Assembly (NCBI GenBank): GCA_902796905.1
Contig: CADBQU010000021.1
Coordinates: forward strand, 1 to 64,000
Reading direction: 5' to 3'
Source: Oscillospiraceae bacterium
Lineage (GTDB): Bacteria; Bacillota; Clostridia; Oscillospirales; Acutalibacteraceae
Length of the DNA: 64,000 bases
Below the pieces are notes generated by a model, which worked only from the letters and a program-made list of their open reading frames with translations, had not been told where the DNA came from and did not search any database. The translations under genes and the position numbers were made by a program. Of this stretch, positions 2,315 through 22,622 are shown piece after piece. How positions within the stretch are numbered: position 1 is the first letter of the stretch; every line of letters starts with the position of its first letter.

Positions 2315-3262
2315 TTGAGTAAAATATCAATAATAGGAACAGGTTGCGTTGGTTCTACCATCGCCTACACATTGGCTGTAACGGGTGTTGCAAGCGAAAT
2401 TACAATGATAGACGTAAACAACGACAAAGCTTTGGGCGAAGCTATGGATATTCGCCAGGGAACACCTTTTTGCGCTCCGTGTTCAATTTATGCGGGCGAT
2501 TATTCCGACGCAAAAGGCTCGGATATAGTTATTGTAACTTCCGGCATAGCAAGAAGCATAGGACAAAGCCGTTTGGATTTAGCGCAAACAAATGTTAATA
2601 TAACAAAATCAATAATTCCTCAAATAACAAAATATGCTCCGGACGCAAACTATATTGTTGTAAGCAACCCGGTAGATATTTTAACCTATACGTTCTTTAA
2701 ACGCTCCGGTTTGCCCGAAAACCGCATTATAGGTTCGGGTACTATTCTTGATACCGCCCGTTTAAGAGCAAGACTTTCCGAATGTTATCAAATAAACCAA
2801 AAAAACGTACACGCATACGTTATGGGCGAACACGGAGATTCTTCGTTTATCCCTTGGTCTTTGGCTAATATATCAAACGTACCGGTAGAAAACTATTTGG
2901 GAACTCTTTCTCATGTAGAGGAAAGCAATTTCGGTAAATTTGATAAAGAAGAAATTGAAAATTACGTTAAAAAATCCGGTGCCAGAGTAATAGCTCAAAA
3001 AGGCGCAACATTCTATGCGGTTTCGGTTTCGGTTTGCCATATTTGCAAATGCTTGCTGGGAAGCATAGATACCACTATGACGGTATCTACATTAATGAAA
3101 GGCGAATACGGAATAGACGACGTTTGCTTAAGCGTATTAAACGTTGTAGGCAGATACGGCGCACACGGCAAAGTTTTAATGCCTTTGGAAGATAACGAAT
3201 TAAAATTATTGCGTAAAAGCGCAGACAGCTTAAAAGACGTTATTAAAAACTTAGACATTTAG
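2315..3262 (+). CDS. LDH-fold dehydrogenase, probably NAD-dependent malate dehydrogenase
   Basis: A 315-residue member of the lactate/malate dehydrogenase superfamily. The Rossmann motif GTGCVGST is at residues 8-15, DTAR at 146-149 and the catalytic GEHGDSS (His173) at 171-177. The substrate-specificity loop reads GIARSIGQSR (77-86): Arg80 stands where lactate dehydrogenases have Gln102 (dogfish numbering), and Arg86 is the catalytic Arg109. Arg at position 102 is the classic malate/oxaloacetate determinant. Proteins like this are often labelled L-lactate dehydrogenase by overall similarity, but this residue and the adjacent fumarase favour oxaloacetate reduction to malate. The start is TTG, supported by GGCAGGGAA upstream. 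The fumC gene follows 68 bases later. Confidence 0.75.
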   Translation: MSKISIIGTGCVGSTIAYTLAVTGVASEITMIDVNNDKALGEAMDIRQGTPFCAPCSIYAGDYSDAKGSDIVIVTSGIARSIGQSRLDLAQTNVNITKSIIPQITKYAPDANYIVVSNPVDILTYTFFKRSGLPENRIIGSGTILDTARLRARLSECYQINQKNVHAYVMGEHGDSSFIPWSLANISNVPVENYLGTLSHVEESNFGKFDKEEIENYVKKSGARVIAQKGATFYAVSVSVCHICKCLLGSIDTTMTVSTLMKGEYGIDDVCLSVLNVVGRYGAHGKVLMPLEDNELKLLRKSADSLKDVIKNLDI

Positions 3263-3330: not shown

Positions 3331-4707
3331 ATGGAATATCGTATAGAACATGATTCTATGGGAGAAATGAAAGTTCCCGCAGACCGTTTGTACGGCGCAC
3401 AAACCCAAAGAAGCCATGAAAATTTTGAAATAGGAATGAATATAGAAACTATGCCGAGAGAAATTACTCATGCTTTCGGCATATTAAAAAAAGCTGCGGC
3501 TATTGCCAATCACGGTTTAAAACCCGAAAAAATGACCGATAAAAAGCTTGACGCCATTAAAAAAGCGTGCGATGAGGTAATAAGCGGAAAATTAAACGAT
3601 CATTTTCCGTTGGTCGTTTGGCAAACGGGTTCGGGTACACAAAGCAATATGAACGCAAACGAAGTAATAGCCAACAGAGGCAACCAAATAGCAGGCGAAA
3701 AAATCCTTCATCCCAACGATGATGTTAATATGAGCCAATCTTCTAACGACACTTTTCCTACCGCCATGCATATTTCGGCGGTTTTGGCTATAGAAGATAA
3801 GCTTATACCGGCGGCGGAGCTTTTAATTGATACTTTTAAAAGGCTTGAAAAAGAAAACGAAGGAATAGTTAAAAGCGGAAGAACACATTTACAGGACGCA
3901 ACGCCTATAAAATTCAGCCAGGAGATAAGCGGTTGGAGAAGCAGCTTGGAAAAAGATGTAGAGCTTTTAAAATTCGCCGTAAAACCTTTGTATTCTTTGG
4001 CTTTGGGCGGAACTGCCGTAGGTACCGGTTTAAATACGCCTAAAGGCTTTGCCGAAAACATAGCCGCAGAAGTGGCAAACATAACCGGTAAACCTTTTGT
4101 AACGGCAGAAAATAAATTCCATGCGCTTACAAGCAAAGATGAAATAGTTTTTGCTCACGGTGCAATTAAAGCATTGGCTTGCGATATGATGAAAATAGCA
4201 AACGATGTTCGTTGGCTTGCAAGCGGACCGAGAGACGGTTTGGGAGAAATATTTATTCCCGAAAACGAACCGGGCAGTTCTATAATGCCGGGCAAAGTTA
4301 ATCCTACGCAATGCGAAGCCGTAACAATGGTAGCCGTTCAGGTTATGGGCAACGATGTTGCGGTAGGTATGGCGGCAAGCCAGGGCAATTTTGAGCTTAA
4401 CGTTTTTATGCCGGTATGTATTTATAACTTTTTACAGTCGGCAAGGTTATTGGCGGAAGCCATAGTTTCGTTTAACAAAAACTGTGCAGTAGGTATTAAA
4501 GCCAACACCGAAAAAATGCACCATAATTTATATAATTCGTTAATGCTGGTTACGGCGTTAAATCCTTATATAGGCTACGAGAACGCCGCAAAAACCGCAA
4601 AAAAGGCTTATAAAGATAATATTTCTTTAAAAGAAGCTTGTGTTGAATTGGGCTTTTTAACCGCAGAACGTTTTGACGAAGTTTTTCATCCCGAAGAAAT
4701 GGCTTAA
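3331..4707 (+). CDS. fumC: Class II fumarase (fumarate hydratase)
   Basis: 458 residues, the usual length for the oxygen-stable, iron-sulfur-free class II fumarase that interconverts malate and fumarate in the cytoplasm. The superfamily signature [15 protein letters not shown] is at about residues 314-328. The [11 protein letters not shown] and [11 protein letters not shown] segments of the active site are also visible. AAGGAG precedes the ATG. Lying between a malate-type dehydrogenase and a fumarate reductase, it most simply supplies fumarate for reduction. The gap to hdrB is 121 bases and contains only a weak hairpin, so read-through is likely. Confidence 0.95.
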
Positions 4708-4828: not shown

Positions 4829-5614
4829 ATGAAAGTAAGTTACTTTCCTGGTTGTACGCTTAAAAATAAAGCAAAAGACCTTGATAAATATGCAAGGCTT
4901 TGCGCTTTAAAATTGGGCGTTGAACTTGAAGAAATAGAAAATTGGCAATGCTGCGGCGGAGCTTTTTCTATGGGCGAAGACGAAATTGCTTCTAAATTAT
5001 CGTCTGTAAGAGCTTTACAATATGCTAAAGAAAAAGACCAATATTTGGTAAGCGTTTGTTCGGCGTGTCATAATGTGCTTAAACAAACCAATTATCAAAT
5101 GCAAAATAATTCCGATTTTGCTTTTAAGGCCAATAATTATTTGGCTTTTGATAACCCTTACAACGGAGAAACAAAGGTTATTCATTATTTAGAGCTTTTA
5201 AGGGACGTTATAGGTTTTGATAAAATAAAAGAAAATACGGTAAATCCTTTAAAGGATAAAAAAATAGCGGCATATTACGGCTGTTTGCTTTTAAGACCCA
5301 GCAAGGTTTTAGCTATGGATGACGCAGAAAATCCAAGCATAATGGAAGATTTTATTAAAGCTATAGGCGCTACGCCGGTAGTATATCCTTACAGGAACGA
5401 ATGCTGCGGCGGATATGCAACGCTTGAAGATAAAAATTTGGTTAACAAAAAAAGCGGTTTGGTTAAAAACAGCGCTAAAAATAACGGAGCCGATTTAATT
5501 ATTACCGCTTGTCCTTTATGTAAATATAATCTTGAAAAAAATAACAATACGGATATTCCGGTAGTTTATATTACCGAGCTTTTGGCAGAAGCTTTGGGCT
5601 TAAAGGAGGAATAG
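4829..5614 (+). CDS. hdrB: Heterodisulfide reductase subunit B-like (two CCG domains)
   Basis: 261 residues with two complete CCG motifs: Cys9, Cys41-Cys42, Cys77, Cys80 and Cys152, Cys192-Cys193, Cys228, Cys231. In HdrB these ligate the unusual non-cubane [4Fe-4S] clusters that carry out disulfide chemistry or pass electrons on to a partner. All cysteines are present, so the subunit should be functional. Bacteria lack CoM and CoB, so the physiological electron acceptor differs from methanogens. The fumarate reductase genes downstream suggest fumarate, or a dithiol shuttle to it. It is the first gene of a tightly packed set. The ribosome-binding site is AAGGGGGAAA. Confidence 0.9.
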   Translation: MKVSYFPGCTLKNKAKDLDKYARLCALKLGVELEEIENWQCCGGAFSMGEDEIASKLSSVRALQYAKEKDQYLVSVCSACHNVLKQTNYQMQNNSDFAFKANNYLAFDNPYNGETKVIHYLELLRDVIGFDKIKENTVNPLKDKKIAAYYGCLLLRPSKVLAMDDAENPSIMEDFIKAIGATPVVYPYRNECCGGYATLEDKNLVNKKSGLVKNSAKNNGADLIITACPLCKYNLEKNNNTDIPVVYITELLAEALGLKEE

Positions 5615-5616
5615 TG

Positions 5617-5997
5617 ATGGATAAATTAAAAGAACAGATATTGCGTACCAGCGGAGTAAATACTTTAAAATGTATGCGCTGCGGAAAATGTTCGGGCACT
5701 TGTCCTTCGTACGATGAAATGGAATATCATCCGCATCAGTTTGTATATATGGTAGAAAAAGGCGAAATAGAGCCTTTGATGAAATCAAAATCTTTATACA
5801 AATGTCTTTCTTGCTTTGCTTGTGTAGAAAGATGTCCGCGTAATGTGGAGCCTGCAAAAATAGTAGAAGCAGTAAGGCTTATGGTTATAAGACAACAGGG
5901 CGAAAATCATTTGACCGCAAATGATATACCGGATTTGTTAGATGAAGATATGCCGCAACAAGCAATTGTAAGCGCATTCAGAAAATACAGTAAATAG
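5617..5997 (+). CDS. hdrC: Heterodisulfide reductase subunit C-like, 2x[4Fe-4S]
   Basis: 126 residues. Two cubane cluster motifs are seen: Cys19, Cys22, Cys25, Cys29 and Cys63, Cys66, Cys69, Cys73, each ending in Cys-Pro or Cys-Pro-Arg. HdrC bridges the flavin subunit HdrA and HdrB. I chose ATG 5617 over the in-frame GTG at 5614 because the AGGAGG at 5604-5609 is spaced 7 bases from the ATG. The hdrB stop is 2 bases upstream, which suggests translational coupling. No transmembrane segment is present, unlike membrane-bound HdrDE systems. Confidence 0.9.
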   Translation: MDKLKEQILRTSGVNTLKCMRCGKCSGTCPSYDEMEYHPHQFVYMVEKGEIEPLMKSKSLYKCLSCFACVERCPRNVEPAKIVEAVRLMVIRQQGENHLTANDIPDLLDEDMPQQAIVSAFRKYSK

Positions 5998-6008: not shown

Positions 6009-8003
6009 ATGCAGAGAATAGGAGTTTTTGTTTGCTGGTGCGGTAGTAACATCGCAGCAACGGTAGACGTTAAAGCCGTAGCAGAGGCTTTAAAAAGCGA
6101 ACCGGGCGTTGTTTTCTCCACAGATTACCAGTATATGTGTTCTCAGGCAGGACAGGATTTAATTAAGGAAGCTATAAAAGAGCATAAACTTACGGGATTG
6201 GTTATTTGTTCCTGTTCTCCCAGAATGCACGAAAATACATTTAGAAAAGTAGCAGCGGATTCGGGTATAAACCCGTATATGGTTGAAATTGCAAATATAC
6301 GCGAACAGTGTTCGTGGGTACATAAAGATAAAGCTATAGGTACCGAAAAAGCAATTATTTTAGCAAGGGCCGCAGTAGCAAAAGTACATTTAAATACACC
6401 GCTTACACCCGGAGAAAGCGAGGTTACCAAAAGAGCTTTGGTTATAGGCGGCGGCATTGCAGGTATTCAAACCGCTTTGGATATTGCAGACGCCGGTTAT
6501 AAAGTAGATATAGTGGAAACCAAACCTACTATAGGCGGAAAAATGGCTCAGCTTGATAAAACTTTCCCGACTTTGGACTGTGCGGCATGTATATTAACGC
6601 CTAAAATGGTTGAGGTTGCGCAGAACGAAAACGTTAGAATTTTTTCCTACAGCGAAGTAACCGAGGTTGGCGGATTTGTAGGTAATTTTACCGTTAAAAT
6701 CAAGAAAAAAGCAAGATATGTTAAAGAGGATGTTTGTACCGGTTGCGGACTTTGCACCGAAAAATGTCCTATGAAAAAAGTTCCGAACGACTTTAACTTG
6801 GGTATGAACAATAAGGGTGCTATTTACATTCCGTTTGCTCAGGCTGTGCCTAAAGTAGCAACTATAGACCCGAATTATTGTAATATGCTTAAAAACGGCA
6901 AATGCGGACTTTGCGCAAAAGTTTGTACCGCAGGCGCTATTGATTATACGCAAAAAGATGAAATTATTGAAGAAAAATACGGCGCTATTGTAGCTGCTAC
7001 GGGATATAACCCTATCTCTTTGGATAAATTTGATGAATTTGCCTATAATCAAAGCAAAGATGTTATTACTTCTTTGGAATTTGAGCGTTTAACAAATGCG
7101 GCAGGTCCTACAAACGGCGTTTTATTAAGACCTTCCGATTTAAAACATCCCAAAACAATAGTATTTGTACAGTGCGTGGGCTCGCGCTGCAGTGCAGACG
7201 CATCAAAGGGAAAAGAATATTGCTCTAAAATTTGCTGTATGTATACCGCAAAGCACGCAATGCTTACAAGAGATAAATATCCGGATACCGATGTTTACGT
7301 ATTTTATATAGATGTTCGTACACCGGGTAAAAACTTTGATGAATTTTACAGAAGAGCCGTTGAAGAATACGGAGTTCATTATATTAAGGGAATGGTTGGA
7401 AAAGTTATTCCCGAAGGCGATAAGCTTATAGTTCAGGGCTCGGATTTACTTGATAACAAACAGCTTAAAATAGAAGCGGATTTAGTTGTTTTGGCAGCGG
7501 CTATAGAGCCGGATAAATCCGCAAGAAATTTAGCTACAATGCTTACGGCTTCTATGGATACAAACGATTTCTTTACCGAAGCCCATCCTAAGCTTCGTCC
7601 CGTAGAAAGTCCTACGGCCGGAATATTCTTGTCAGGTACCTGCCAAGGTCCTAAAGATATACCCGAAACGGTATCTCAGGCGGGAGCGGCAGCAAGTAAG
7701 GTTATAGGATTGTTGGCAAAAGATAAACTTAAGGGAAATCCCTGCGTAGCGCATTCCGACGAACTTATGTGTAACGGATGCTCCAGCTGCGAAAGAGTTT
7801 GTCCGTACAAAGCCATAACTTATGTTGATAAAGAATTCAGAATGCCGGACAGAACAACAAAAGTAAGAAGAGTGGCTTTTGTAAACGAAGCGGTTTGTCA
7901 GGGCTGCGGAGCCTGTACGGTTGCATGTCCTTCGGGAGCTATGGACTTAAAAGGCTTTAAGAGCAAACAAATTATGGCGGAGGTAGACGCAATATGCAAG
8001 TAA
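6009..8003 (+). CDS. hdrA: Heterodisulfide reductase subunit A-like, electron-bifurcating flavoprotein
   Basis: 664 residues, full HdrA length. An N-terminal cysteine-containing domain (Cys9, Cys11, Cys44) is followed by an FAD-binding thioredoxin-reductase-like core with GGGIAG at 147-152 and the DCAACILTPKM cluster motif at 190-200. A ferredoxin-type cluster starts at Cys243, and two more lie near the C-terminus (from Cys588 and Cys630). In characterised Hdr complexes the HdrA FAD splits electron pairs between a low-potential path to ferredoxin and a high-potential path through HdrBC. Here it should be the bifurcation centre. It starts 11 bases after hdrC behind GGGGAGAAAG and overlaps the next gene by 10 bases. 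Confidence 0.92.
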   Translation: MQRIGVFVCWCGSNIAATVDVKAVAEALKSEPGVVFSTDYQYMCSQAGQDLIKEAIKEHKLTGLVICSCSPRMHENTFRKVAADSGINPYMVEIANIREQCSWVHKDKAIGTEKAIILARAAVAKVHLNTPLTPGESEVTKRALVIGGGIAGIQTALDIADAGYKVDIVETKPTIGGKMAQLDKTFPTLDCAACILTPKMVEVAQNENVRIFSYSEVTEVGGFVGNFTVKIKKKARYVKEDVCTGCGLCTEKCPMKKVPNDFNLGMNNKGAIYIPFAQAVPKVATIDPNYCNMLKNGKCGLCAKVCTAGAIDYTQKDEIIEEKYGAIVAATGYNPISLDKFDEFAYNQSKDVITSLEFERLTNAAGPTNGVLLRPSDLKHPKTIVFVQCVGSRCSADASKGKEYCSKICCMYTAKHAMLTRDKYPDTDVYVFYIDVRTPGKNFDEFYRRAVEEYGVHYIKGMVGKVIPEGDKLIVQGSDLLDNKQLKIEADLVVLAAAIEPDKSARNLATMLTASMDTNDFFTEAHPKLRPVESPTAGIFLSGTCQGPKDIPETVSQAGAAASKVIGLLAKDKLKGNPCVAHSDELMCNGCSSCERVCPYKAITYVDKEFRMPDRTTKVRRVAFVNEAVCQGCGACTVACPSGAMDLKGFKSKQIMAEVDAICK

Positions 8004-8428
8004 ACGAATTTAAACCTAAAATAGTTGCGTTTTGCTGCAACTGGTGTTCGTATGCCGGAGCAGACCTTGCCGGCAACAACCGTTTGAATTATCCCGATAA
8101 TGTAAAAATCATACGCGTACCGTGCTCTTGCAGAGTAAATCCCATGTTTATTTTAAGGGCATTCCAAAGAGGAGCGGACGGCGTAATACTGTGCGGATGC
8201 CATCCGGGCGACTGCCATTATACGTCGGGTAACTATTATACAAGAAGAAGAATGGCACTTTTGTTTTCAATGCTTGAATATTTGGGAATTGAAAAAGAGA
8301 GAACCAGAGTTGAATGGGTATCTGCCGCCGAAGGCGCAAAATTTTCGGCTACTATGAATGAATTTTGCGAGCAGGTAGCAGCTTTGGGCGAAAACAAGCG
8401 ATTGGAGGATTTAAGATGCAAACAGTAA
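7994..8428 (+). CDS. MvhD/FlxD-like [2Fe-2S] electron-transfer subunit
   Basis: 144 residues of the MvhD family (methyl-viologen-reducing hydrogenase delta). The N-terminal motif FCCNWCSYAGAD has Cys14, Cys15 and Cys18, and further cysteines lie in VPCSCR and CGCHPGDCHY. In Mvh-Hdr and Flx-Hdr complexes this subunit passes electrons from the hydrogenase or the NADH-oxidising module to HdrA. There is no hydrogenase large or small subunit in the cluster, so the donor module must be the Flx-type genes that follow. The ATG lies within the hdrA end (10-base overlap). Confidence 0.88.
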   Translation: MQVNEFKPKIVAFCCNWCSYAGADLAGNNRLNYPDNVKIIRVPCSCRVNPMFILRAFQRGADGVILCGCHPGDCHYTSGNYYTRRRMALLFSMLEYLGIEKERTRVEWVSAAEGAKFSATMNEFCEQVAALGENKRLEDLRCKQ

Positions 8429-9405
8429 CTCGAAATCAGCTTGTGGAAAAAGCTAAAGAACTTTTGAATAACGGAACAGTTACAAGAGTTTTAGGTATTA
8501 AAAAAGGCGAATTTTCGTACGATTTAACTCCGGCTGTTTTTACTTCTGCCGAGGAATTGGAAAAAGAGTTTGAGTTTAACGGATTTGCCGCCGCAAATTT
8601 TTCCAAATATTTGGTTAAATTGGCAGACGGCGAAGGAAAAATTTTAGTATTTTTAAAACCGTGCGACAGTTACAGCTTTAACCAGCTTTTAACCGAACAC
8701 CGTTTTAACCGCGAAAATGTTTATGCGGTAGGTATAGAGTGCGATGGCTTTGCCGACTATAAAAAAATTGAAGAAGAATTTAACGACGGAATAAAATCGG
8801 TTGAATTTAACGGCGAAAAAATAGAAGTTACAACTTTATACGACGGTAAAAAAGAACTTGCTTTTGCCGACTATATGTTAGAACGCTGCAAAAATTGCAA
8901 AACAAAAAAAATAGCGGCATTCGACGAGCTTTTAACCGAAAACAGCGATGAAACAAAAAATACGCGTTTTGAAGAAGTTGAAAAACTAGAGGCTATGACT
9001 CCGGATGAAAGATATGCTTTTTGGAGAAATGAGCTTTCAAGATGTATAAGATGTAATGCTTGCAGAGATGTATGTCCTGCTTGTACTTGCGAAAAATGCG
9101 TGTTTAACAATCCCGATTCCGGTGTAGAAAACAAGGCTATTCAAAACAGCTTTGAAGAAAATATGTTCCATATTATAAGGGCGTTTCACGTTGCCGGCAG
9201 ATGTACCGACTGCGGAGAATGCTCCAGAGTATGTCCGCAACATATTCCGCTTCATTTATTAAACAGAAAGTTTATTAAAGATATAAACAGCTTTTACGGA
9301 GAATATCAGGCAGGGGCGGAAGTAGGAAACAGAGCGCCGCTTGTTAATTACACAAAAGAGGATATAGAGCCTAAAGACGCAGTAGGAAGGGGCAGTGAAG
9401 AATAA
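8416..9405 (+). CDS. Iron-sulfur protein, FlxC/FlxB-type electron carrier
   Basis: 329 residues from ATG 8416, chosen because GGAGG lies at 8404-8408; the frame stays open to 8365, deep inside the previous gene. The N-terminal half is a mixed alpha/beta domain with an FLKPCDSYSF motif. The C-terminal half carries two ferredoxin-type motifs, CIRCNACRDVCPACTCEKC and CTDCGECSRVCP. This is the layout of the iron-sulfur subunits of Flx (flavin oxidoreductase) complexes, related to hydrogenase/dehydrogenase electron-transfer subunits. It probably carries electrons between the NADH-oxidising FlxA-like subunit and MvhD. I cannot decide whether it is formally FlxB or FlxC. Confidence 0.75.
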   Translation: MQTVTRNQLVEKAKELLNNGTVTRVLGIKKGEFSYDLTPAVFTSAEELEKEFEFNGFAAANFSKYLVKLADGEGKILVFLKPCDSYSFNQLLTEHRFNRENVYAVGIECDGFADYKKIEEEFNDGIKSVEFNGEKIEVTTLYDGKKELAFADYMLERCKNCKTKKIAAFDELLTENSDETKNTRFEEVEKLEAMTPDERYAFWRNELSRCIRCNACRDVCPACTCEKCVFNNPDSGVENKAIQNSFEENMFHIIRAFHVAGRCTDCGECSRVCPQHIPLHLLNRKFIKDINSFYGEYQAGAEVGNRAPLVNYTKEDIEPKDAVGRGSEE

Positions 9406-10433
9406 TGAAAAAAATATTAAAGAAAAATCTTCAAAACCTTTTTGCAGCAATAAGTAAAGAAACGGATTTATTTTTGCCGGTTTTAAATTCCGCTAAAAAC
9501 GCAGAATTTAAAAAATGGACCGAAGGCACCGAATATTCCGAAGAGCTTAATACCGTTAGAAGCGCAAAAGACTTTTTCTTTCCGCAAACCGAAAATATAT
9601 GCGATTTTAAAACAAGCGGAAAAAATATAGAGATTATAGAAAACAGCGAATTACCCGAAAATTTTGCGGTTTTTGGCGTTAGAGCCTGCGACTTAAAAAG
9701 CTTTGAGGTTTTGGACAATGTATTTTTATCCGAGCCGGTAGACAGCTTTTATAAAACACGCAGAGAAAATGCGGTTATATTTACCATGGCTTGCAATAGG
9801 CCTAAAGAAACCTGTTTTTGCCATACGTTTAATATAAATGCGGCAGACCCAAAAGGGGATGTGGAATGCTTCGAAGACGAAACTTATGTTTATTTAAATC
9901 CTTTAACCCAAAAAGGTAAAGATTTATTAAATAAAGTTACCTCGGCTTTAGAAGATGAAACCGAAGAGCCCGTTAAAAAAATAAAAGCCGAAATAGAAGA
10001 AAGACTTAAAAATCTTCCTTTGTATAATCTTTCGGCTGAAAGCTTCGGCAGCGATAAAACAGAGGAATTCTTTAACCGTAAGGAATGGGACGAACTTTCC
10101 GAGGCCTGCTTAGGGTGCGGTACCTGTACGTTTGTTTGCCCCACTTGCCAATGCTACGATATTAAAGATTTCAATACCGGACACGGAGTAAAACGTTTCA
10201 GATGCTGGGATTCCTGTATGTATTCCGATTTTACAAAAATGTCTGCAGGACAGCCCAGAACGCATCAAAAAGAGCGTTTTCGTCAGCGTTTTATGCACAA
10301 ATTGGTTTATTATCCTACAAACAACAACGGTATGTTCAGTTGTGTAGGCTGCGGCAGATGCTTAAAGAAATGCCCTATTTCAATGAATATTGTAAAAGTT
10401 ATTAAAAAGTTGGGAGGAACTGCAAATGGCTAA
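9405..10433 (+). CDS. Iron-sulfur protein, FlxB/AsrA-like (4Fe-4S dicluster)
   Basis: 342 residues. The N-terminal part resembles anaerobic sulfite reductase subunit A and related hydrogenase beta proteins (segments GVRACDLKSFEVLD and CNRPKETCFCHTF). The C-terminal dicluster has CLGCGTCTFVCPTCQCYD and CVGCGRCLKKCP. Its ATG overlaps the previous stop by one base, so the two are translationally coupled. An AsrA label would be misleading here because no siroheme sulfite reductase subunit AsrC is present. Pairing with the FlxA-like gene and the Hdr genes indicates an electron-relay role in an NADH-linked Flx module. Confidence 0.75.
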   Translation: MKKILKKNLQNLFAAISKETDLFLPVLNSAKNAEFKKWTEGTEYSEELNTVRSAKDFFFPQTENICDFKTSGKNIEIIENSELPENFAVFGVRACDLKSFEVLDNVFLSEPVDSFYKTRRENAVIFTMACNRPKETCFCHTFNINAADPKGDVECFEDETYVYLNPLTQKGKDLLNKVTSALEDETEEPVKKIKAEIEERLKNLPLYNLSAESFGSDKTEEFFNRKEWDELSEACLGCGTCTFVCPTCQCYDIKDFNTGHGVKRFRCWDSCMYSDFTKMSAGQPRTHQKERFRQRFMHKLVYYPTNNNGMFSCVGCGRCLKKCPISMNIVKVIKKLGGTANG

Positions 10434-11259
10434 TATTAACGACCCTTTAATACCGGTTATAGGTGTTGTAACCGATATTAGAATAGATACACCGGACGTT
10501 AAAACCTTCAGAGTAGTAACTCCCGACGGCAAAAAGGCTTTTGAACATAAACCCGGTCAGTGCGCAATGCTTTCTATGCCGGGTGTAGGCGAAGCAATGT
10601 TTTCTATAACTTCTTCACCCACAAACAAAGAATTTATGGAATTTTCCATAAAAAAATGCGGATGTGTAACGCAGTGGCTTCATCAAATAGAAGTAGGTCA
10701 GCAAATAACCATTCGCGGTCCTTACGGACATCCTTTTCCGGTCGATACCGCATTTAAAGGCAAAGATTTATTGTTTATTGCCGGCGGTATAGGATTGGCT
10801 CCTTTAAGAAGCGTTATAAACTATGTTCGTTTTTACAGGGAAAATTACGGTAAAGTAGATATAGTTTACGGTTCGAGAAGTAAAGACGATTTGGTAGACT
10901 ATAAAGAAATTATAGACGAATGGTGTAATGATGAAGGAATAAACGTTCATTTAACCATAGACCGTGAGCAAGAGGGTTGGGACGGACACGTAGGATTTGT
11001 TCCCAATTATGTTAAAGAATTGGGCTTTGATACAAATAAAGTAGCAATTATTTGCGGTCCGCCTATAATGATTAAATTTACTCTTGCGGGACTTACCGAA
11101 TTGGGCTTTGATAAAACCCAGGTATATACTACTATGGAATTAAGAATGAAGTGCGGTATTGGAAAATGCGGAAGATGCAACATAGGTTCTAAATATGTTT
11201 GCAAAGACGGACCTGTTTTCCGTTGCGATGAGCTTGACGAACTACCGGACGAATATTAA
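10426..11259 (+). CDS. FlxA-like FAD/NAD(P)-binding oxidoreductase subunit with C-terminal [2Fe-2S]
   Basis: 277 residues of the ferredoxin-NADP reductase superfamily. The FAD segment around GQCAMLSMPGVGEAMFSITS is at 44-63, the nucleotide-binding GGIGLAPLRS at 120-129, and the C-terminal cluster cysteines are at 243, 248, 251 and 259. It resembles AsrB, PyrK and FlxA. In Flx complexes this is the subunit that takes electrons from NADH, and it should be the entry point of this cluster. It overlaps the previous gene by 8 bases, with GGGAGG upstream of the ATG. NADH versus NADPH preference cannot be read off here. Confidence 0.82.
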   Translation: MANINDPLIPVIGVVTDIRIDTPDVKTFRVVTPDGKKAFEHKPGQCAMLSMPGVGEAMFSITSSPTNKEFMEFSIKKCGCVTQWLHQIEVGQQITIRGPYGHPFPVDTAFKGKDLLFIAGGIGLAPLRSVINYVRFYRENYGKVDIVYGSRSKDDLVDYKEIIDEWCNDEGINVHLTIDREQEGWDGHVGFVPNYVKELGFDTNKVAIICGPPIMIKFTLAGLTELGFDKTQVYTTMELRMKCGIGKCGRCNIGSKYVCKDGPVFRCDELDELPDEY

Positions 11260-11296: not shown

Positions 11297-11971
11297 ATGG
11301 AAAATATGGTTAACGTATTTATATTCGGTAAAAGATATTCCGTACCCGAAAATCTTACTATTATGCGCGCTATGGAATATTCCGGATATCAGTTAATAAG
11401 GGGCTGCGGATGCCGTAACGGATTTTGCGGTGCATGTGCCACTATTTACAGAATAAAGGGAGATAAAGAGCTTCACGCCTGCTTGGCTTGTCAAACAAAG
11501 GTTGAAGACAATATGTACATTGCTACATTACCGTTTTTTCCGCTTGTTAAACAAGTTTACGATATTGAAAAAATATCGGTTAACGAGCAGATTATGATGC
11601 AGCTTTATCCCGAAATTTATGCTTGTATAGGTTGTAACGCCTGTACAAAAAGCTGTACGCAGGGCTTAAACGTTATGCAATACATAGCTTATGCGCAAAG
11701 GGGAGAATTCGACAAGTGTGCCGATGAATCTTTTGACTGCGTTATGTGCGGCGTTTGCTCTTCCAGATGTCCGGCGGGAATATCTCATCCGCAGGTAGCA
11801 ATGCTTGCCAGAAGAATAAACGGCAAATATTTGGCTCCTAAATGCGGTCATCTTGAAAACAGAGTTAAAGAAATTAAAGACGGTACTTTTAAAGACCTTT
11901 TAGAAGACCTTATGCAAAAACCGGTGGAAGAAATGAAAGAACTTTACAACCACCGCGAAATAGAGAAATAG
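11297..11971 (+). CDS. Soluble fumarate reductase iron-sulfur subunit (TfrB N-half-like)
   Basis: 224 residues. An N-terminal plant-type [2Fe-2S] domain has Cys37, Cys39, Cys44, Cys47, Cys62 and Cys65. The C-terminal dicluster domain has Cys110, Cys113, Cys116, Cys120 and Cys148, Cys151, Cys154, Cys158. Both clusters show the full four-cysteine [4Fe-4S] pattern, whereas quinone-linked SdhB/FrdB has one [3Fe-4S] site. Together with the absence of any membrane anchor gene, this points to a cytoplasmic, quinone-independent enzyme. It matches the first part of methanogen thiol:fumarate reductase TfrB but lacks TfrB's C-terminal CCG domain, which here may be supplied by HdrB. It starts 37 bases after the flxA-like gene. 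Confidence 0.82.
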   Translation: MENMVNVFIFGKRYSVPENLTIMRAMEYSGYQLIRGCGCRNGFCGACATIYRIKGDKELHACLACQTKVEDNMYIATLPFFPLVKQVYDIEKISVNEQIMMQLYPEIYACIGCNACTKSCTQGLNVMQYIAYAQRGEFDKCADESFDCVMCGVCSSRCPAGISHPQVAMLARRINGKYLAPKCGHLENRVKEIKDGTFKDLLEDLMQKPVEEMKELYNHREIEK

Positions 11972-11985
11972 GGAGGGTAAAAACA

Positions 11986-13593
11986 ATGTATTCAGAAAAA
12001 TTCAGCGAATCCTTAAAACTTGTTGAACAGGCCAGGGATAAAAATATTGCTTTAGAACCCGCCCGTATGACAGCCGAACAGAAAGATACTTTGCTTGCCA
12101 CATATCATCCGGATTATAAAACGGATGAATTTGAGGTTTTAAAAATAGGCGCTAACAAAGGCGAAAAAGTTCCTATGGAATTAGCCGCAATGTTAGAGGC
12201 AAAAAGCAGAATATCGGCAAACGATGTTGATTTAACAAAACCCGATATAGACTGTGATGTTTTAATTATAGGCGGAGGCGGAGCAGGATGCTCGGCAGCT
12301 ATTGAAGCCGACGAAGCGGGAGCCAAAGCCGTTATAGTTACAAAACTGAGAATAGGCGACGCAAATACAATGATGGCCGAAGGCGGTATTCAGGCTGCCG
12401 ATAAAGAAAACGACAGCCCGGCAATACATTTTTTAGACGCATTTGGCGGCGGACATTTTGCCGCTAAAAAAGAGCTTTTGTATAAATTGGTAAACAATGC
12501 TCCCGAAGCTATACTTTGGTTAAACGAACTTGGTGTTGAATTTGATAAAGATAAAGACGGCAATATGATTACCACCCACGGCGGCGGTACCAGCCGTAAA
12601 CGTATGCATGCCGCAAAAGACTATTCGGGTGCGGAAATTATGAGAACTTTAAGAGATGAAGTTTTAAACAGAAAAATTCCCGTAATAGATTTTACAGCTG
12701 CCATTGAGCTTATTTTAGACGAAAACGGAAATGCAGCCGGCGCAGTTTTAATGAATATGGAAACCAAGGATTTATTGGTTGCAAAGGCTAAAACCGTTAT
12801 TATAGCCACCGGCGGAGCCGGAAGAATGCATTATCAGGGATTTCCCACTTCAAACCATTACGGCGCTACAGCCGACGGTTTGGTTTTAGGCTACCGTGTA
12901 GGCGCAAAACTTTTATACGCCGATACATTACAGTATCATCCTACAGGCGCAGCATTCCCGGAACAGATTTTCGGTGCTTTGGTTACCGAAAAAGTACGTT
13001 CTTTGGGTGCAAAATTAGTTAATAAAAACGGCGAAGTATTTATGCATCCGCTTGAAACCAGAGATGTTGCCGCAGCTTCTATAATTCGTGAATGCGGCGA
13101 CAGACAAAACGGAGTAGATACCGGCAACGGTTTGGGCGTTTGGTTGGATACTCCTATGATTGAAAAAATAGGCGGAGAAGGTACTATAGAAAAACGTATT
13201 CCGGCTATGATGCGTATGTTTGGAAAATACGGAATAGATATAAGAAAAGAACCTATTTTGGTTTATCCTACTTTGCATTATCAAAACGGCGGATTGGATA
13301 TTAATGAAAACGGCGAAACCACAAACGTTAAAAACTTGTTTGTAGCCGGCGAAGCCGTTGGCGGAATACACGGCAGAAACAGACTTATGGGAAATTCTTT
13401 ACTTGATATTATAGTTTTCGGAAGAAATGCCGGAACAAATGCGGCACAAAGAAGTAAAGAAGTTAATGTAGGAAAATTAACGCTTTCCCATATAGATAAA
13501 TTTTTAAAAGAACGTAATGAGGCGGGTATAGACAGCACGGAAGTTTCTCCTAAGCTTTTACCGAATTATGTTCATAATGCTAAAGAACAATAA
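11986..13593 (+). CDS. Fumarate reductase/succinate dehydrogenase flavoprotein subunit, soluble type
   Basis: 535 residues. A charged N-terminal extension of about 88 residues precedes the FAD motif IGGGGAG (95-101). Family landmarks follow: MMAEGGIQAADK (129-140), HGGGTSRKRMH (198-208), HPTG (318-321) and a C-terminal GEAVGGIHGRNRLMGNS that closes the FAD site. These support fumarate reduction to succinate at a covalently or tightly bound FAD. The same N-extended type occurs in other anaerobes with soluble Tfr-like enzymes, as far as I recall. It lies 14 bases after the iron-sulfur subunit with a GGGAGG ribosome-binding site. L-aspartate oxidase is a less likely alternative because no nadA or nadC is nearby. 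Confidence 0.85.
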   Translation: MYSEKFSESLKLVEQARDKNIALEPARMTAEQKDTLLATYHPDYKTDEFEVLKIGANKGEKVPMELAAMLEAKSRISANDVDLTKPDIDCDVLIIGGGGAGCSAAIEADEAGAKAVIVTKLRIGDANTMMAEGGIQAADKENDSPAIHFLDAFGGGHFAAKKELLYKLVNNAPEAILWLNELGVEFDKDKDGNMITTHGGGTSRKRMHAAKDYSGAEIMRTLRDEVLNRKIPVIDFTAAIELILDENGNAAGAVLMNMETKDLLVAKAKTVIIATGGAGRMHYQGFPTSNHYGATADGLVLGYRVGAKLLYADTLQYHPTGAAFPEQIFGALVTEKVRSLGAKLVNKNGEVFMHPLETRDVAAASIIRECGDRQNGVDTGNGLGVWLDTPMIEKIGGEGTIEKRIPAMMRMFGKYGIDIRKEPILVYPTLHYQNGGLDINENGETTNVKNLFVAGEAVGGIHGRNRLMGNSLLDIIVFGRNAGTNAAQRSKEVNVGKLTLSHIDKFLKERNEAGIDSTEVSPKLLPNYVHNAKEQ

Positions 13594-13610: not shown

Positions 13611-14861
13611 ATGAAACTTTTCGGCGGTGTAATTTCAATATCCGGAATTACTTATATGATGTTTGCCGTATTTATAATTGCGGCTTTAGGATATCTTTTA
13701 GGAAGAATTACCATTAAAGGCGTTTCTTTAGGTACGGCAGGCGTTTTTGTGGTAGCTATATTATTCGGCGCTTTGTTTTCTAACACCATTACACAAACGG
13801 TGGTGCAAAATATAGGCGGACACGCCGAAAACATAAGTTCCAACATTTTAAAAACCATAGAAAATATAGGCTTGGTATTGTTTGTAACTTCTGTTGGTTT
13901 TATAGCCGGTCCCAACTTTTTTAAAAACCTAAAGAAGAATTTTAAATCTTATATTTTATTGGGTGTAGTTATTATTGTTTCCGGCGGATTGGCTTGTATT
14001 GCCTGTTATTATATGGGCGTTTCCGGTGCAAAAGATACAAAAGAATTTGCTGCAATATTAGTAGGCGCTTTATCAGGTGCATTAACAAGCACTCCGGCTT
14101 TCAGTTCTTCTAAAGCTGCGGTAGCGCCGCAATATGAAGACGCAGTTACCGTAGGTTACGGTATAGCGTATTTATTCGGCGTTATAGGCGTTGTACTTTT
14201 TGTTCAGTTAATGCCTAAAATATTAAAGGCGGATATAAATGAAGAACGCAAAAAAATAGCGGTTGTAGATACAGGCAAAAAAACCGAAGTTACCGGAAAA
14301 CTTATAGAAATGGACGATTTTGGAATTATGCCTTTTGCTTTGGCCGCGGTTATAGGCGTTTTGGTAGGCGCTATTAAAATTCCTTTAACTTCTAAAGGAT
14401 TAAGCGGAACTTGTTTTTCCCTTACAACTACCGGCGGAGCGCTTATAACGGCACTTGTTTTCGGACATTTCGGCAAATGCGGAAAAATAAGCTTAAAGGT
14501 TAAAGATTCTACCGCAAAAGTATTCAGAGAATTCGGTTTAATGCTGTTTTTAATTGGAGCAGGCGTTGCCGGAGGTACAAACTTTGTAAAATACTTTAAA
14601 CCTATATATTTTGTTTACGGAATGATTATGACTTTAGTGCCTATGATTATAGGCTTTATAGTAGCAAAATATGTATTAAAACTAAACTTGCTTAACAACT
14701 TAGGCTCTATTACCGGCGGTATGACAAGTACCCCGGCGTTAGGAACGTTAATTCATGTTTCGGGAACGGAAGACGTAGCCTCTGCTTACGCCGCAACATA
14801 CCCAATAGCATTAATTTCGGTTGTTTTAATTTCGCAAGGACTGTGTTTGTTCCTGGGTTAG
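13611..14861 (+). CDS. AspT/AAE-family transporter, short form; probable dicarboxylate (succinate) exporter
   Basis: 416 residues, almost entirely hydrophobic, with two homologous AspT/YidE-like halves. Each half has the family signature near its end of the repeat: GALSGALTSTPAFSSSKAAV and GSITGGMTSTPALGTL. A typical VGYGIAYLFGVIGVVLFVQL segment is also seen. AAE members include the aspartate:alanine exchanger AspT and the succinate exporter SucE1 of Corynebacterium. Usual family members of about 550 residues carry two RCK_C (TrkA-C) domains between the halves; here that region is only about 40 residues, so the cytoplasmic domains are missing. It follows the fumarate reductase by 17 bases and is the last gene of the run, which favours succinate export. 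Confidence 0.75.
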   Translation: MKLFGGVISISGITYMMFAVFIIAALGYLLGRITIKGVSLGTAGVFVVAILFGALFSNTITQTVVQNIGGHAENISSNILKTIENIGLVLFVTSVGFIAGPNFFKNLKKNFKSYILLGVVIIVSGGLACIACYYMGVSGAKDTKEFAAILVGALSGALTSTPAFSSSKAAVAPQYEDAVTVGYGIAYLFGVIGVVLFVQLMPKILKADINEERKKIAVVDTGKKTEVTGKLIEMDDFGIMPFALAAVIGVLVGAIKIPLTSKGLSGTCFSLTTTGGALITALVFGHFGKCGKISLKVKDSTAKVFREFGLMLFLIGAGVAGGTNFVKYFKPIYFVYGMIMTLVPMIIGFIVAKYVLKLNLLNNLGSITGGMTSTPALGTLIHVSGTEDVASAYAATYPIALISVVLISQGLCLFLG

Positions 14862-14943: not shown

Positions 14944-14977
14944 CCGATAACCTTAATTACGGGTTATCGGCCTTTTT
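14944..14977. terminator. Bidirectional intrinsic terminator
   Basis: CCGATAACC (14944-14952) pairs with GGTTATCGG (14962-14970), followed by CCTTTTTGTT. A-rich sequence on the other side lets it serve the convergent minus-strand gene too. It closes the plus-strand redox cluster. Confidence 0.85.
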
Positions 14978-20025: not shown

Positions 20026-21039
20026 TTATATTGCTTCTATTTCCTGTCCTAAAAATCCTGCGTAACCGTTGTTACCGTCGTTGGCGTTATAACCGGTTAC
20101 CCAGCTGAGCCATTTTTTCTTTCGGCGTAAATGCACGCGGTAGCAAACGGTTTTTCCGGTATCGGTTTTTATCATTAAGCCGTCTATGGGTTTGTTATAA
20201 ACTCCGGCAAAATCTATACGGTTTTTAACCTCCGGCAGCCACACGCCGCCTTTTATATGTGCTTTGTACCAAATGTTTCCCTCCGATAAACTTGCAAATA
20301 CCGCGCATACATCATGTTTAAATATACCTGCGTAATCGGTTTTATCGGTAACGTTCGGCAGCCAACAATTTAATACATCGTCCCAAACCTGATATTTAAC
20401 CGATATTTTCTTTTTGTTTACTGTAGTATTTAAATTATTTGTTTTGGTATTGTTTTGCGGATGATTTGAAATAACGGAAGTATTGTTTTTAACGTTTGGT
20501 TCCAGTGTTTTTAAAATGCCGTAAGCTATGGCTGTGCCCATTTTTTTCTGTTTTTCGGCCGTATTAATTATTTCTATATCTTTTACATTATCAATAAAAG
20601 CTCCTTCTACAATTACAGAAGGAGCTTTTATTTCTCGGATAAAACCAAAATAATCTTTGCCGAAAATATTCTTTTTTATTTTTAAACCTCTGGAATTTTG
20701 ACCTATTTTAACTATTTCGTTTAAAATATTTTGTGCCAAGATTTTTGAGGTTCCGCCTTTTGAGTAATGGAACACTTCCGCTCCGTCTCCGCCGCCTGAA
20801 TTGTTATGTATATCCAATGCCAAATCGGGGTTAAAATTATTACATTCTTTTATTTCGTCCGTAAGCGGGTCATTTTCGTCTTTTGTTCGGCTCATTAATA
20901 CAGAAACGCCGTTTTTAACCAATTCATCTCTGCAAGCTAATGCTATTGATAAATTTAAATCTTTTTCTTTAAAACCGTTGCCCGTGGCTCCGCTGTCTCT
21001 ACCTCCGTGCCCTACGCCTATAAAAACTTTTTTTGCCAT
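20026..21039 (-). CDS. Phage-type N-acetylmuramoyl-L-alanine amidase (endolysin)
   Basis: 337 residues. An N-terminal Amidase_3 zinc amidase domain (residues 1-175) shows the GVGHGGRDSGATG start and the glutamate of VIVEGAFIDN near 140. It cleaves the amide bond between MurNAc and L-Ala. After a Thr/Asn-rich linker the C-terminal 125 residues contain Trp-containing repeats (WLPNVTDKTDYAG, WLPEVKNRIDFAGV, WVTGYN...NGYAGFLGQEIEAI) resembling clostridial ChW-like wall-binding repeats. There is no signal peptide, and the gene follows a holin gene, both typical of a phage lysis cassette. Confidence 0.88.
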   Translation of the reverse strand: MAKKVFIGVGHGGRDSGATGNGFKEKDLNLSIALACRDELVKNGVSVLMSRTKDENDPLTDEIKECNNFNPDLALDIHNNSGGGDGAEVFHYSKGGTSKILAQNILNEIVKIGQNSRGLKIKKNIFGKDYFGFIREIKAPSVIVEGAFIDNVKDIEIINTAEKQKKMGTAIAYGILKTLEPNVKNNTSVISNHPQNNTKTNNLNTTVNKKKISVKYQVWDDVLNCWLPNVTDKTDYAGIFKHDVCAVFASLSEGNIWYKAHIKGGVWLPEVKNRIDFAGVYNKPIDGLMIKTDTGKTVCYRVHLRRKKKWLSWVTGYNANDGNNGYAGFLGQEIEAI

Positions 21040-21287: not shown

Positions 21288-22622
21288 TTAAGAATAATAT
21301 CTTTTACCGTATACCGATATTTTTGTACCTGCTTTTAATTTCCAACCTTCAGTAGGAATGGAAACCGTTAAGTTATTTAAATAATGTGTTGTAATGTTAA
21401 CGCCTTGTGTTCGTTTAGAGGTTGAGGCTTGGGCTTGGTATTGTAGGCTTGTATTTTCCATAATAACAATACCAATTGCATTAATAAATGTTGAAGTAAT
21501 ATATTTTGCGCCCTTGTTAAGGCTATCACTTGCAACCGTAGTAACTGTGCCGTTAGCGTTAGTAACCTTGTATTCTATTTGTCCGTTTGCGGCACTTGAC
21601 GCCGTATCTGCCGGATATTCTATTTTTACCATTAATTCTGCATAATTGCCGTTTAAAGTAATGGCTTGGCTTTCGGCTTCCGCTTCTATTGTTATATCGT
21701 CGGCGGCTTTTTGCCACTGTGTTAAATTAATAAGCTCATTAGTTATTATTTTATTTTGTACCGTATTGGCAGAAGTAGTGCTTAATGCGTCATCAACCAT
21801 AACTACCGAGGTTTTAAACCAGGTAACAGTTCCCGTGTCCGAAACATATGCCGTAGCATAATATCCGTTTTTGTCATTCGGTTCGTTTCCTATAAAATAT
21901 GTGTCGCCGTACCAAACGCTACCTGTCGGTAAGCCTTGTTGAGGAAAACGTATTCCTTTAAATGTCATACATTTATTTAAATTTAAATAGCCCGGTACTT
22001 CTGCGGTTTTAAACCATGTTAAGCCTGAACCGTCGGAACTTATCCACGCCGATGCAAAAGCATTTTTATCTAATAAATAGTAAGTGTCGCCCATTTTTAT
22101 GTTTTCGGTAGGCAAAGCAGAAGACGAAATAACACCTTTAAAAGTCATAATTCCTACTTTTTTAATTTCGGTATTTACTTCTTCGCTTACCAAAGCGTCT
22201 ACCATTGTTTGTAATTCTTCTTTTGTGGCTGCGGGGTTTAATACCTCGTCTTCGCCATTCGGGCTGTTTAATATTTGTAAAATACAGGAAGCCGTTTTGC
22301 CTTTAACGTTGATTGCGCCGTCCGCATCGTTTTGTACGGCAGTAACACAAAAAATCAAATCTCCCGCCTGCGGCATAAGCTGTTCCCACAAAGTAAGTTT
22401 AACGGTGTTGTTTGTTAATTCATTTTTAGGAATATTGGGCGAAGCCAAATGCGTTCCGTAAATTGTTTGAAATTCAAAGTAATAATATGCTATATCTTCG
22501 GAAATAATTCGGGTGGGTAAGGTAACAACCAACTCGGTTTCATTGTGTTCTTTTGCATATCCTCCGAATATTTTTTGAGGGTGTGTTTCATCCCGAGATA
22601 AGTCTATGTTAATAGTTCTCAT
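21288..22622 (-). CDS. Phage tail-fibre/upper baseplate-like protein
   Basis: 444 residues. The N-terminal part (about 1-125) looks like a BppU/phage tail N-terminal domain (INIDLSRDE...). A short coiled region follows (EELQTMVDALVSEEV). Two tandem repeats come next, each beginning MTFKG and ending near TWFKT, about residues 158-280 (MTFKGVISS...LTWFKTAEV and MTFKGIRFP...VTWFKTSVV). The C-terminus is beta-rich. The order tail fibre, holin, endolysin is a standard late phage module. The ribosome-binding site is AAGGAGTGA. Host-receptor binding is the likely role if any phage particle or tailocin is made. Confidence 0.75.
   Translation of the reverse strand: MRTINIDLSRDETHPQKIFGGYAKEHNETELVVTLPTRIISEDIAYYYFEFQTIYGTHLASPNIPKNELTNNTVKLTLWEQLMPQAGDLIFCVTAVQNDADGAINVKGKTASCILQILNSPNGEDEVLNPAATKEELQTMVDALVSEEVNTEIKKVGIMTFKGVISSSALPTENIKMGDTYYLLDKNAFASAWISSDGSGLTWFKTAEVPGYLNLNKCMTFKGIRFPQQGLPTGSVWYGDTYFIGNEPNDKNGYYATAYVSDTGTVTWFKTSVVMVDDALSTTSANTVQNKIITNELINLTQWQKAADDITIEAEAESQAITLNGNYAELMVKIEYPADTASSAANGQIEYKVTNANGTVTTVASDSLNKGAKYITSTFINAIGIVIMENTSLQYQAQASTSKRTQGVNITTHYLNNLTVSIPTEGWKLKAGTKISVYGKRYYS

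Follow-up and report, generated by a model that had tools for sequence, protein, structure and literature searches.

The closest described counterpart of the locus considered here is the 'succinate operon' of Pseudoclostridium thermosuccinogenes. In the parts of the published account that we draw on, this operon brings together a fumarate hydratase, an NADH dehydrogenase/heterodisulfide reductase (Flx-Hdr), a fumarate reductase and what may be a succinate transporter (PMC7282089). The same excerpts already propose, for P. thermosuccinogenes, that fumarate reduction is coupled to the reduction of ferredoxin, and report that the operon is up about 4-fold under CO2 limitation, although not significantly for all subunits (PMC7282089); they also cite a 2019 preprint on this fumarate reductase (10.20944/preprints201912.0288.v1). 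Here we analyse a stretch of 64,000 nucleotides, hereafter the window, from an Oscillospiraceae bacterium (GCA_902796905.1, contig CADBQU010000021.1, positions 1-64,000). Compared by gene list with the operon as excerpted, the window's gene string also has a fumarase, HdrABC, a FlxABCD-type module, FrdAB and a transporter. The window is a further example of this known operon type, for which the coupling was proposed earlier, and the system is not new. In the literature searched, part of it in excerpt, the coupling is described only in PMC7282089, and other descriptions may exist. What is added here is the order-wide co-occurrence of the components, the HdrCB-FrdB cassettes, the Hdr-free genomes, the fold of FrdB and an apparent repeated rewiring.

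A second point of comparison is provided by the type-E SdhABE enzymes and the MFR of Wolinella and Campylobacter. In the excerpted source, the cysteine pattern of type-E SdhB implies a second [4Fe-4S] cluster instead of a [3Fe-4S] cluster, and the Wolinella MFR, itself of type E, has a non-covalent FAD, lacks the FAD-linking histidine and gave no detectable succinate oxidation (PMC2680327). The second-[4Fe-4S] cysteine pattern, a ten-cysteine CCG partner and the missing FAD histidine are shared by the window's proteins. MFR, however, is a membrane-bound enzyme of the periplasm, to which it is exported, and oxidises menaquinol (excerpts of PMC2680327), whereas the window's CCG protein is part of an HdrABC set and its genome yielded no UbiA. 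The window's FrdA also differs from the type-E enzymes and MFR in having no C-terminal flavoprotein domain.

Methanogen TfrAB consists of a fumarate-reductase flavoprotein and an Fe-S subunit with two four-cysteine motifs, to which a CCG domain is fused. The window has the same kind of flavoprotein, the two motifs and the CCG chemistry, but its CCG domain is unfused and its proteins score below the NCBIfam TfrA and TfrB cut-offs. The FlxABCD-HdrABC of Desulfovibrio vulgaris was reportedly described by Ramos et al. in 2015, and work on D. alaskensis by Meyer et al. in 2014 is said, by its title, to connect endogenous fumarate reduction with Hdr-Flox. The NADH/Hdr half of the gene set is common to D. 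vulgaris and the window, and the D. alaskensis system shares, by title, the link to fumarate reduction; the window differs from both in that HdrB is tied to an adjacent FrdBA and DsrC is absent from the genome. E. coli FrdABCD (NC_000913) has a two-domain Fe-S subunit with the same domain order and the same fumarate-site residues in FrdA, whereas the window has a four-cysteine second site, no anchor genes following and no covalent-FAD histidine.

Gene string, cysteine motifs and fold of FrdB

All genes of the string lie on the forward strand. The first (2315-3262) encodes an LDH/MDH-family dehydrogenase with Pfam Ldh_1_N/C matches, which scores over the NCBIfam cut-off for L-LDH and under that for MDH. 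In its translation the specificity loop is GIARSIGQSR, with Arg at the MDH-type position; on the Arg/Gln rule for this loop, which we assume to apply, the Arg is read as MDH-type and the product is possibly a malate dehydrogenase. The gene lies just upstream of fumC and, if it does encode MDH, the route from oxaloacetate to succinate would be encoded in one stretch. FumC, a class II fumarase (3331-4707; TIGR00979, 711.2 bits, over cut-off), is followed by HdrB (4829-5614), the proposed electron donor to FrdB; its two PF02754 matches bear out the original prediction of a separate HdrB with both CCG domains in FrdB's gene string. Next come HdrC (5614-5997; GTG start, two four-cysteine motifs; TIGR03290, 65.7 bits, under cut-off) and HdrA (6009-8003; NF040770 HdrA2, 792 bits, under its cut-off of 1100), an FAD protein presumed to carry the bifurcating flavin.

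The Flx names are given by resemblance, to an MvhD/FlpD-like subunit (FlxD, 7994-8428; PF02662, 187.9 bits), a 4Fe-4S protein (FlxC-like, 8413-9405; Fer4_8; the ORF is also open from TTG at 8365), a ShyB/AsrA-like 4Fe-4S protein (FlxB-like, 9405-10433; NF040829, 168.9 bits, under cut-off) and an FAD/NAD(P)H-binding subunit with a DHODB-type Fe-S domain (FlxA-like, 10426-11259; PF00175, PF00970, PF10418), the presumed point of entry for NADH. FrdB (11297-11971; 224 residues, ATG start) and FrdA (11986-13593; 535 residues), a fumarate-reductase-type flavoprotein, precede an AspT/YidE-family transporter (13611-14861; PF06826, 200.5 bits), which may export or exchange succinate. The string ends with a terminator-like 10-pair stem with a T tail (14944-14970, forward strand); terminator-like sites in the region number 12, against 13.6 expected from shuffles. 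Further downstream, a gene for an N-acetylmuramoyl-L-alanine amidase (20026-21039, reverse strand) adjoins a 444-residue ORF (21288-22622) without a Pfam match, the two possibly being a phage remnant.

FrdB comprises a [2Fe-2S] domain, whose ligands are taken to be Cys39/44/47/65, and two four-cysteine motifs, Cys110/113/116/120 (CIGCNACTKSC) and Cys148/151/154/158 (CVMCGVCSSRC, then P), both of them complete C-x2-C-x2-C-x3-C patterns. The 12 ligand cysteines are invariant in 41/41 and, in a larger set, 151/151 relatives, and the pattern is therefore not due to chance; Cys37, Cys62, Cys141 and Cys183 vary. The second site of E. coli FrdB is CTFVGYCSEVCP, which is without the second cysteine of the motif, and the [3Fe-4S] motif of classical types A-D is absent from FrdB, since Cys151 is kept in all 151 relatives. 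From these cysteines we infer that the second site holds a [4Fe-4S] rather than a [3Fe-4S] cluster. FrdB stops at residue 224, with no Pfam match to a CCG domain. Thus, the original prediction was right about the two full motifs, the missing [3Fe-4S] cysteine pattern and the end of the protein without a TfrB-like CCG domain. Two four-cysteine motifs in the Fe-S subunit are nevertheless the already known type-E/MFR pattern, and in the phylum scan they also occur in Bacillota SdhB (of an SdhB-SdhE pair), a second SdhB-like protein and a TfrB-family protein.

For the fold, an AlphaFold2 model of FrdB built with 63 sequences was used (mean pLDDT 89.5, pTM 0.78); an earlier model from 22 sequences (mean pLDDT 59.9) was left out of the comparison. 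With VIA-align, residues 94-180 matched HdrC of Methanothermobacter marburgensis best (Z 11.3, rmsd 2.2, 87 aligned), followed by a second HdrC chain (Z 11.2), CODH/ACS, tied at 10.5, and RnfC (Z 9.9 with rmsd 12.3, and 9.4); SdhB is not among the best 50 VIA-align matches, which excludes nothing. For the N-terminal part, the matches are [2Fe-2S]-bearing chains of complex I and of an Nfn-ABC complex (Z 9.8). In Foldseek, the top rank goes to a tungsten aldehyde oxidoreductase chain and ranks two to four to chains of respiratory complex II or fumarate reductase, all at E of about 1e-4 to 2e-4 and TM of about 0.3; complex II and E. coli fumarate reductase B chains hold ranks 3 and 4, with low TM. 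At the profile level, hhalign pairs FrdB with the window's own HdrC at 95.0% over 75 columns. Other sequence evidence speaks against HdrC in particular: among NCBIfam models the dicluster part scores highest on RnfC (40.0 bits) and CdhA (36.8), and no HdrC model is among the 16 NCBIfam matches of FrdB, nor is HdrC among its best 60 PDB profile-search matches, which list RnfC and other ferredoxin-type chains. In the model, FrdB consists of a [2Fe-2S] domain followed by a dicluster domain of the HdrC/CODH/RnfC type. Because HdrC is the natural neighbour of HdrB and the FrdB dicluster is of this type, docking of FrdB on HdrB is plausible on the modelled fold.

A possible electron route to fumarate

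In the route that we propose, FrdBA is a soluble fumarate reductase that needs no quinone and would serve as the high-potential outlet for a FlxABCD-HdrABC complex. NADH would reduce FlxA, and electrons would pass by way of FlxB, FlxC and FlxD to the HdrA flavin, which would bifurcate them, one going to ferredoxin and the other through HdrC to the two CCG clusters of HdrB. These clusters would act as a relay, as in type-E SdhE, and not as a disulfide-reducing site. From HdrB the path would lead through the distal [4Fe-4S], proximal [4Fe-4S] and [2Fe-2S] clusters of FrdB to the non-covalent FAD of FrdA, where fumarate would be reduced, so that the net reaction would be 2 NADH + fumarate + Fd(ox) -> 2 NAD+ + succinate + Fd(red). 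With ferredoxin potentials of -500 to -420 mV, simple arithmetic puts the coupled reaction at about -33 to -49 kJ/mol. The values used for NAD and fumarate/succinate, -320 mV and +33 mV, come from an excerpt of PMC5861303.

That FrdBA is the exit of a bifurcating FlxABCD-HdrABC, fed through HdrC-HdrB, is in our judgement reasonably likely. Gene content, cysteine motifs, site residues, the lack of Sdh_cyt and UbiA matches in the genome and the co-occurrence of the genes are read directly from the sequence; complex formation, the HdrB-FrdB contact, bifurcation and its direction are what we infer. If the proposal is true, each succinate yields reduced ferredoxin, which Rnf could spend, and an Rnf-type pump could turn it into an ion gradient; the window's genome has two NQR2/RnfD/RnfE-family genes. 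The joint between HdrB and FrdB would be the deciding step for fumarate reduction as a bifurcation exit. A relay role for HdrB, if true, would also change the reading of HdrB homologues that have no known disulfide substrate.

Partners of FrdBA and competing explanations

Within the order, FrdB (E<=1e-15) is present in 54 of 295 genomes and HdrB (E<=1e-20) in 53, with both in 52 (raw counts, uncorrected for kinship). The two genes share a contig, 6.3-6.6 kb apart, in 50 of these 52 and lie on different contigs in G155 and G088. Only G179 and G286, both 99% complete, have FrdB without HdrB, and they have no HdrA match either; HdrB without FrdB is confined to G142, which is 80% complete and also has HdrA. 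The order HdrBCA-FlxDCBA-FrdBA is found in 37 of 40 regions from the order and class, one of them cut by the contig end before HdrBC; of the others, one places FrdBA ahead of HdrBCA-FlxDCBA and two carry FrdBA with neither Hdr nor Flx. Among named loci, the full series occurs in 65 of the best 80 of 569 matches and only its 3' part in 15; these 80 are all 80-89% identical to the query, which places distant organisms outside the sample, and many come from ruminant guts, by their record titles.

At the level of the phylum, an FrdB match at E<=1e-15 is present in 39 of 398 genomes, the window's included, and every such match reaches E 2e-84 or better, so the family is sharply bounded. The sample from outside the class comprises 30 phylum-level regions, out of 38 genomes that could have been drawn on. 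Flx-Hdr accompanies FrdBA in 4 of them. A further 5 carry HdrC-HdrB-FrdB with no HdrA or Flx within the region (L274 ends before FrdA), and another 5 have HdrA, a second, larger HdrA-like protein, an FlxD-like and a weakly FlxC-like protein before FrdBA, with HdrB visible in 4 and the fifth cut. The other 16 have no Hdr beside FrdBA, a count that refers to the immediate surroundings and not to the rest of those genomes (L248, L256 and L265 are cut less than 2.5 kb upstream). Within these 16, a 4Fe-4S/cytochrome b561-type protein adjoins FrdBA in three (L265 and L266 by Pfam, L269 by clustering), an FMN_bind/4Fe-4S module is present in two (L264 by Pfam, L252 by clustering) and, by clustering, FrdBA stands with class I fumarase and malic enzyme in five. 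No FrdB-HdrB fusion was noticed, in passing, among the regions viewed.

The putative FrdB-HdrB wire is supported because of the co-occurrence in the order (52 with both, one with HdrB only and two with FrdB only) and the cassettes in 5 of 30 regions without HdrA or Flx. The wiring put forward in the original prediction thus stands in part: synteny, co-occurrence and HdrCB-FrdB cassettes make HdrB the best donor candidate, but the partnership is not exclusive, as FrdBA free of Hdr exists. G179 and G286 are the clearest evidence against exclusivity; with FrdBA present and both HdrB and HdrA missing, FrdB can therefore take electrons from something else. Together with the HdrCB-FrdBA cassettes, these two genomes are natural material bearing on the HdrB-FrdB joint. 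FrdBA is found at L071 (3367-5660) and, with FumC, at L083 (7915-11751), in genomes that are 99% complete and give no match to HdrA or HdrB; judged by their gene content these appear to be natural uncoupled forms.

G179 and G286, and the 16 of 30 regions outside the class in which FrdBA has no neighbouring Hdr, lend some weight to a different explanation, namely that FrdBA receives its electrons from ferredoxin or some other soluble carrier, with Flx-Hdr acting in parallel on a small disulfide and the operon reflecting shared redox physiology only. We regard this as unlikely, though it deserves attention, since HdrB in the order occurs almost only with FrdB and HdrCB-FrdB cassettes occur with neither Flx nor HdrA next to them. 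DsrC, the only disulfide substrate looked for, also counts against it: there is no DsrC match in the window's genome or in any of the 16 Flx-Hdr genomes searched, and the four genomes with DsrC among the 23 searched are all of the HdrCB-cassette type. DsrC as a substrate of HdrB was accordingly rejected for the Flx-Hdr genomes.

A further possibility is a thiol:fumarate reductase, in which HdrB would oxidise a dithiol and feed FrdB as the CCG domain of TfrB does, and this is close to the original prediction that FrdB and HdrB together are a split TfrB. HdrB does have both CCG domains, the only CCG matches in the window's genome, with ten cysteines invariant in 116/116 relatives; FrdB has its two four-cysteine motifs, and the best NCBIfam match of FrdA is TfrA, at 345.3 bits against a cut-off of 718. 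However, HdrB aligns with a type-E SdhE from Bacillota over its whole length (31% identity over 274 residues, E 2e-52) and with the TfrB CCG domain examined in short pieces only, the best being 24% over 76 residues (E 5e-5). The TfrB used here, a single protein from Bacillota and not a methanogen TfrB, scores over the NCBIfam TfrB cut-off, but its flavoprotein partner lacks the fumarate-site motifs HPTG and TExxR, which makes it a family benchmark and not a proven thiol:fumarate reductase. On the family models HdrB scores 147.4 bits for HdrB and 144.5 for SdhE (cut-off 500), both under cut-off, while FrdB (35.4 bits) and HdrB (49.6 bits) fall short of the TfrB cut-off of 385.

FrdB itself resembles its four reference Fe-S subunits weakly (best BLAST piece of each at E 7e-6 to 5e-3). 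In the alignment with TfrB and SdhB/FrdB that the original prediction had called for, it is collinear over both domains and about equally far from TfrB (hhalign 94.6%), type-E SdhB (95.7%) and E. coli FrdB (95.6%). As an evolutionary statement the split TfrB is rejected, pairwise and profile comparisons placing FrdB no closer to TfrB than to SdhB. Because HdrB is closer to SdhE than to the TfrB CCG domain, SdhB plus SdhE is, on these comparisons, the closer analogy for FrdB plus HdrB. With HdrA and an NADH-type input encoded alongside, no thiol would be needed and, to our knowledge, the CoM and CoB thiols are not expected in Clostridia; we consider a thiol donor very improbable. A Bacillota protein over the TfrB cut-off is encoded in L212 (1302-4532); its flavoprotein partner has FYPIG in place of HPTG and no TExxR, and is, from these motifs, probably not a fumarate reductase.

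Should FrdBA instead be a quinol:fumarate reductase with an unrecognised membrane anchor, its neighbours in L265, L266 and L269, where the adjoining 4Fe-4S/cytochrome b561-type protein comes with UbiA in all three genomes, would speak for it. The window's genome, which is 96.96% complete, gives no match to the Sdh_cyt anchor (PF01127), in a search that took in Sdh_cyt and not the FrdC/FrdD models, and none to the UbiA prenyltransferase, for which the controls gave 14/14. A membrane anchor partner, which the original prediction had named as telling against it, is thus not seen by the Sdh_cyt search, and both a quinone anchor and, indirectly from the absence of UbiA, a quinone as electron partner of FrdBA find no place in this genome as searched. 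UbiA over cut-off is likewise absent from 11 of 12 Flx-Hdr genomes of the order and class, and a quinol donor seems to us highly doubtful. If bifurcation to FrdBA is true, these genomes would be a case of quinone-free energy conservation by fumarate reduction in Clostridia. Among Flx-Hdr genomes from outside the class, 3 of 4 have UbiA, as do 4/4 HdrCB genomes and 3/3 cytochrome b genomes; because of those 3 Flx-Hdr genomes, the idea that UbiA tracks the input module holds only partly, and the family takes in other enzymes as well.

FrdA bears on the direction of the reaction. Aligned to solved chains, its H318, T320, E335, R338, H431 and R466 are kept in 141/141 sequences and T334 in 140/141; together we take these residues to be the dicarboxylate site of fumarate reductases and succinate dehydrogenases. 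Asn127 occupies the position of the FAD-linking histidine (alignment to chain 1nek) and is Asn in 141/141, and a non-covalent FAD is therefore predicted. Pfam finds no C-terminal Succ_DH_flav_C match, and FrdA lacks a C-terminal region of about 130 residues that three comparison proteins have; its N-terminal extension of 88 residues has 17 positions conserved at >=90% and no Pfam match. Bifurcating flavoenzymes are reversible in principle, and the complex could then oxidise succinate together with reduced ferredoxin to make NADH (confurcation). Given the Asn at the FAD-linking position throughout, the lack of succinate oxidation by MFR, also without covalent FAD (excerpts of PMC2680327), and the expression of this operon type during fermentation in the succinate producer P. 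thermosuccinogenes (excerpts of PMC7282089), we give confurcation hardly any credence.

FrdBA as a possible plug-in fumarate-reducing head

A concatenated FrdB+FrdA tree of 54 rows was built by a quick method and given six input labels; L267, L083 and L268 are long branches. The six labels need 12 changes on the tree, against a minimum of 5 and a mean of 25.1 when shuffled, with none of 200 shuffles as low; label changes may be gains or losses, which are indistinguishable here. The Flx-Hdr label alone needs 7 changes, at least 6 of them forced by starred branches, and its members are spread over three distinct parts of the tree; one of them, L263, is placed with a support of only 84. The FMN label does not cluster beyond shuffles.

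A wider reading, which we offer tentatively and with somewhat less than even confidence, is that FrdBA is a plug-in fumarate-reducing head of the Bacillota. The HdrC-like dicluster of FrdB would dock on the outlet side of HdrB, HdrB would be a pure wire without disulfide turnover, and the head would have been rewired repeatedly. Its targets would include Flx-HdrABC (in three tree parts and three gene arrangements), HdrCB alone, HdrA with the larger HdrA-like protein, the 4Fe-4S/cytochrome b561 protein and the FMN_bind module.

Several of the loci merit mention in their own right. FrdBA with the cytochrome b561-type protein (L265, 2332-5855; L266, 6927-10248; L269, 6653-10002) is a possible quinone-linked version of the enzyme. 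At L252 (9418-13794) and L264 (3962-9516), an FMN_bind + 4Fe-4S protein precedes FrdB, along with proteins of 536-558 and 190-192 residues that have no Pfam match; this redox module looks undescribed. Of the five regions with HdrA and the larger HdrA-like protein, four adjoin 2-oxoacid:ferredoxin oxidoreductase-type genes. At L275 (3604-17749), HdrB, HdrA, a 1073-residue HdrA-like protein, an FlxD-like protein, an FeS protein and FrdBA stand in series and continue, by Pfam, into 2-oxoacid:ferredoxin oxidoreductase-type and succinyl-CoA ligase-type (SucC-type) genes, so that fumarate reduction here adjoins a ferredoxin-using step. By clustering, the downstream genes of L275 also occur in L258 and partly in L259 and L272.
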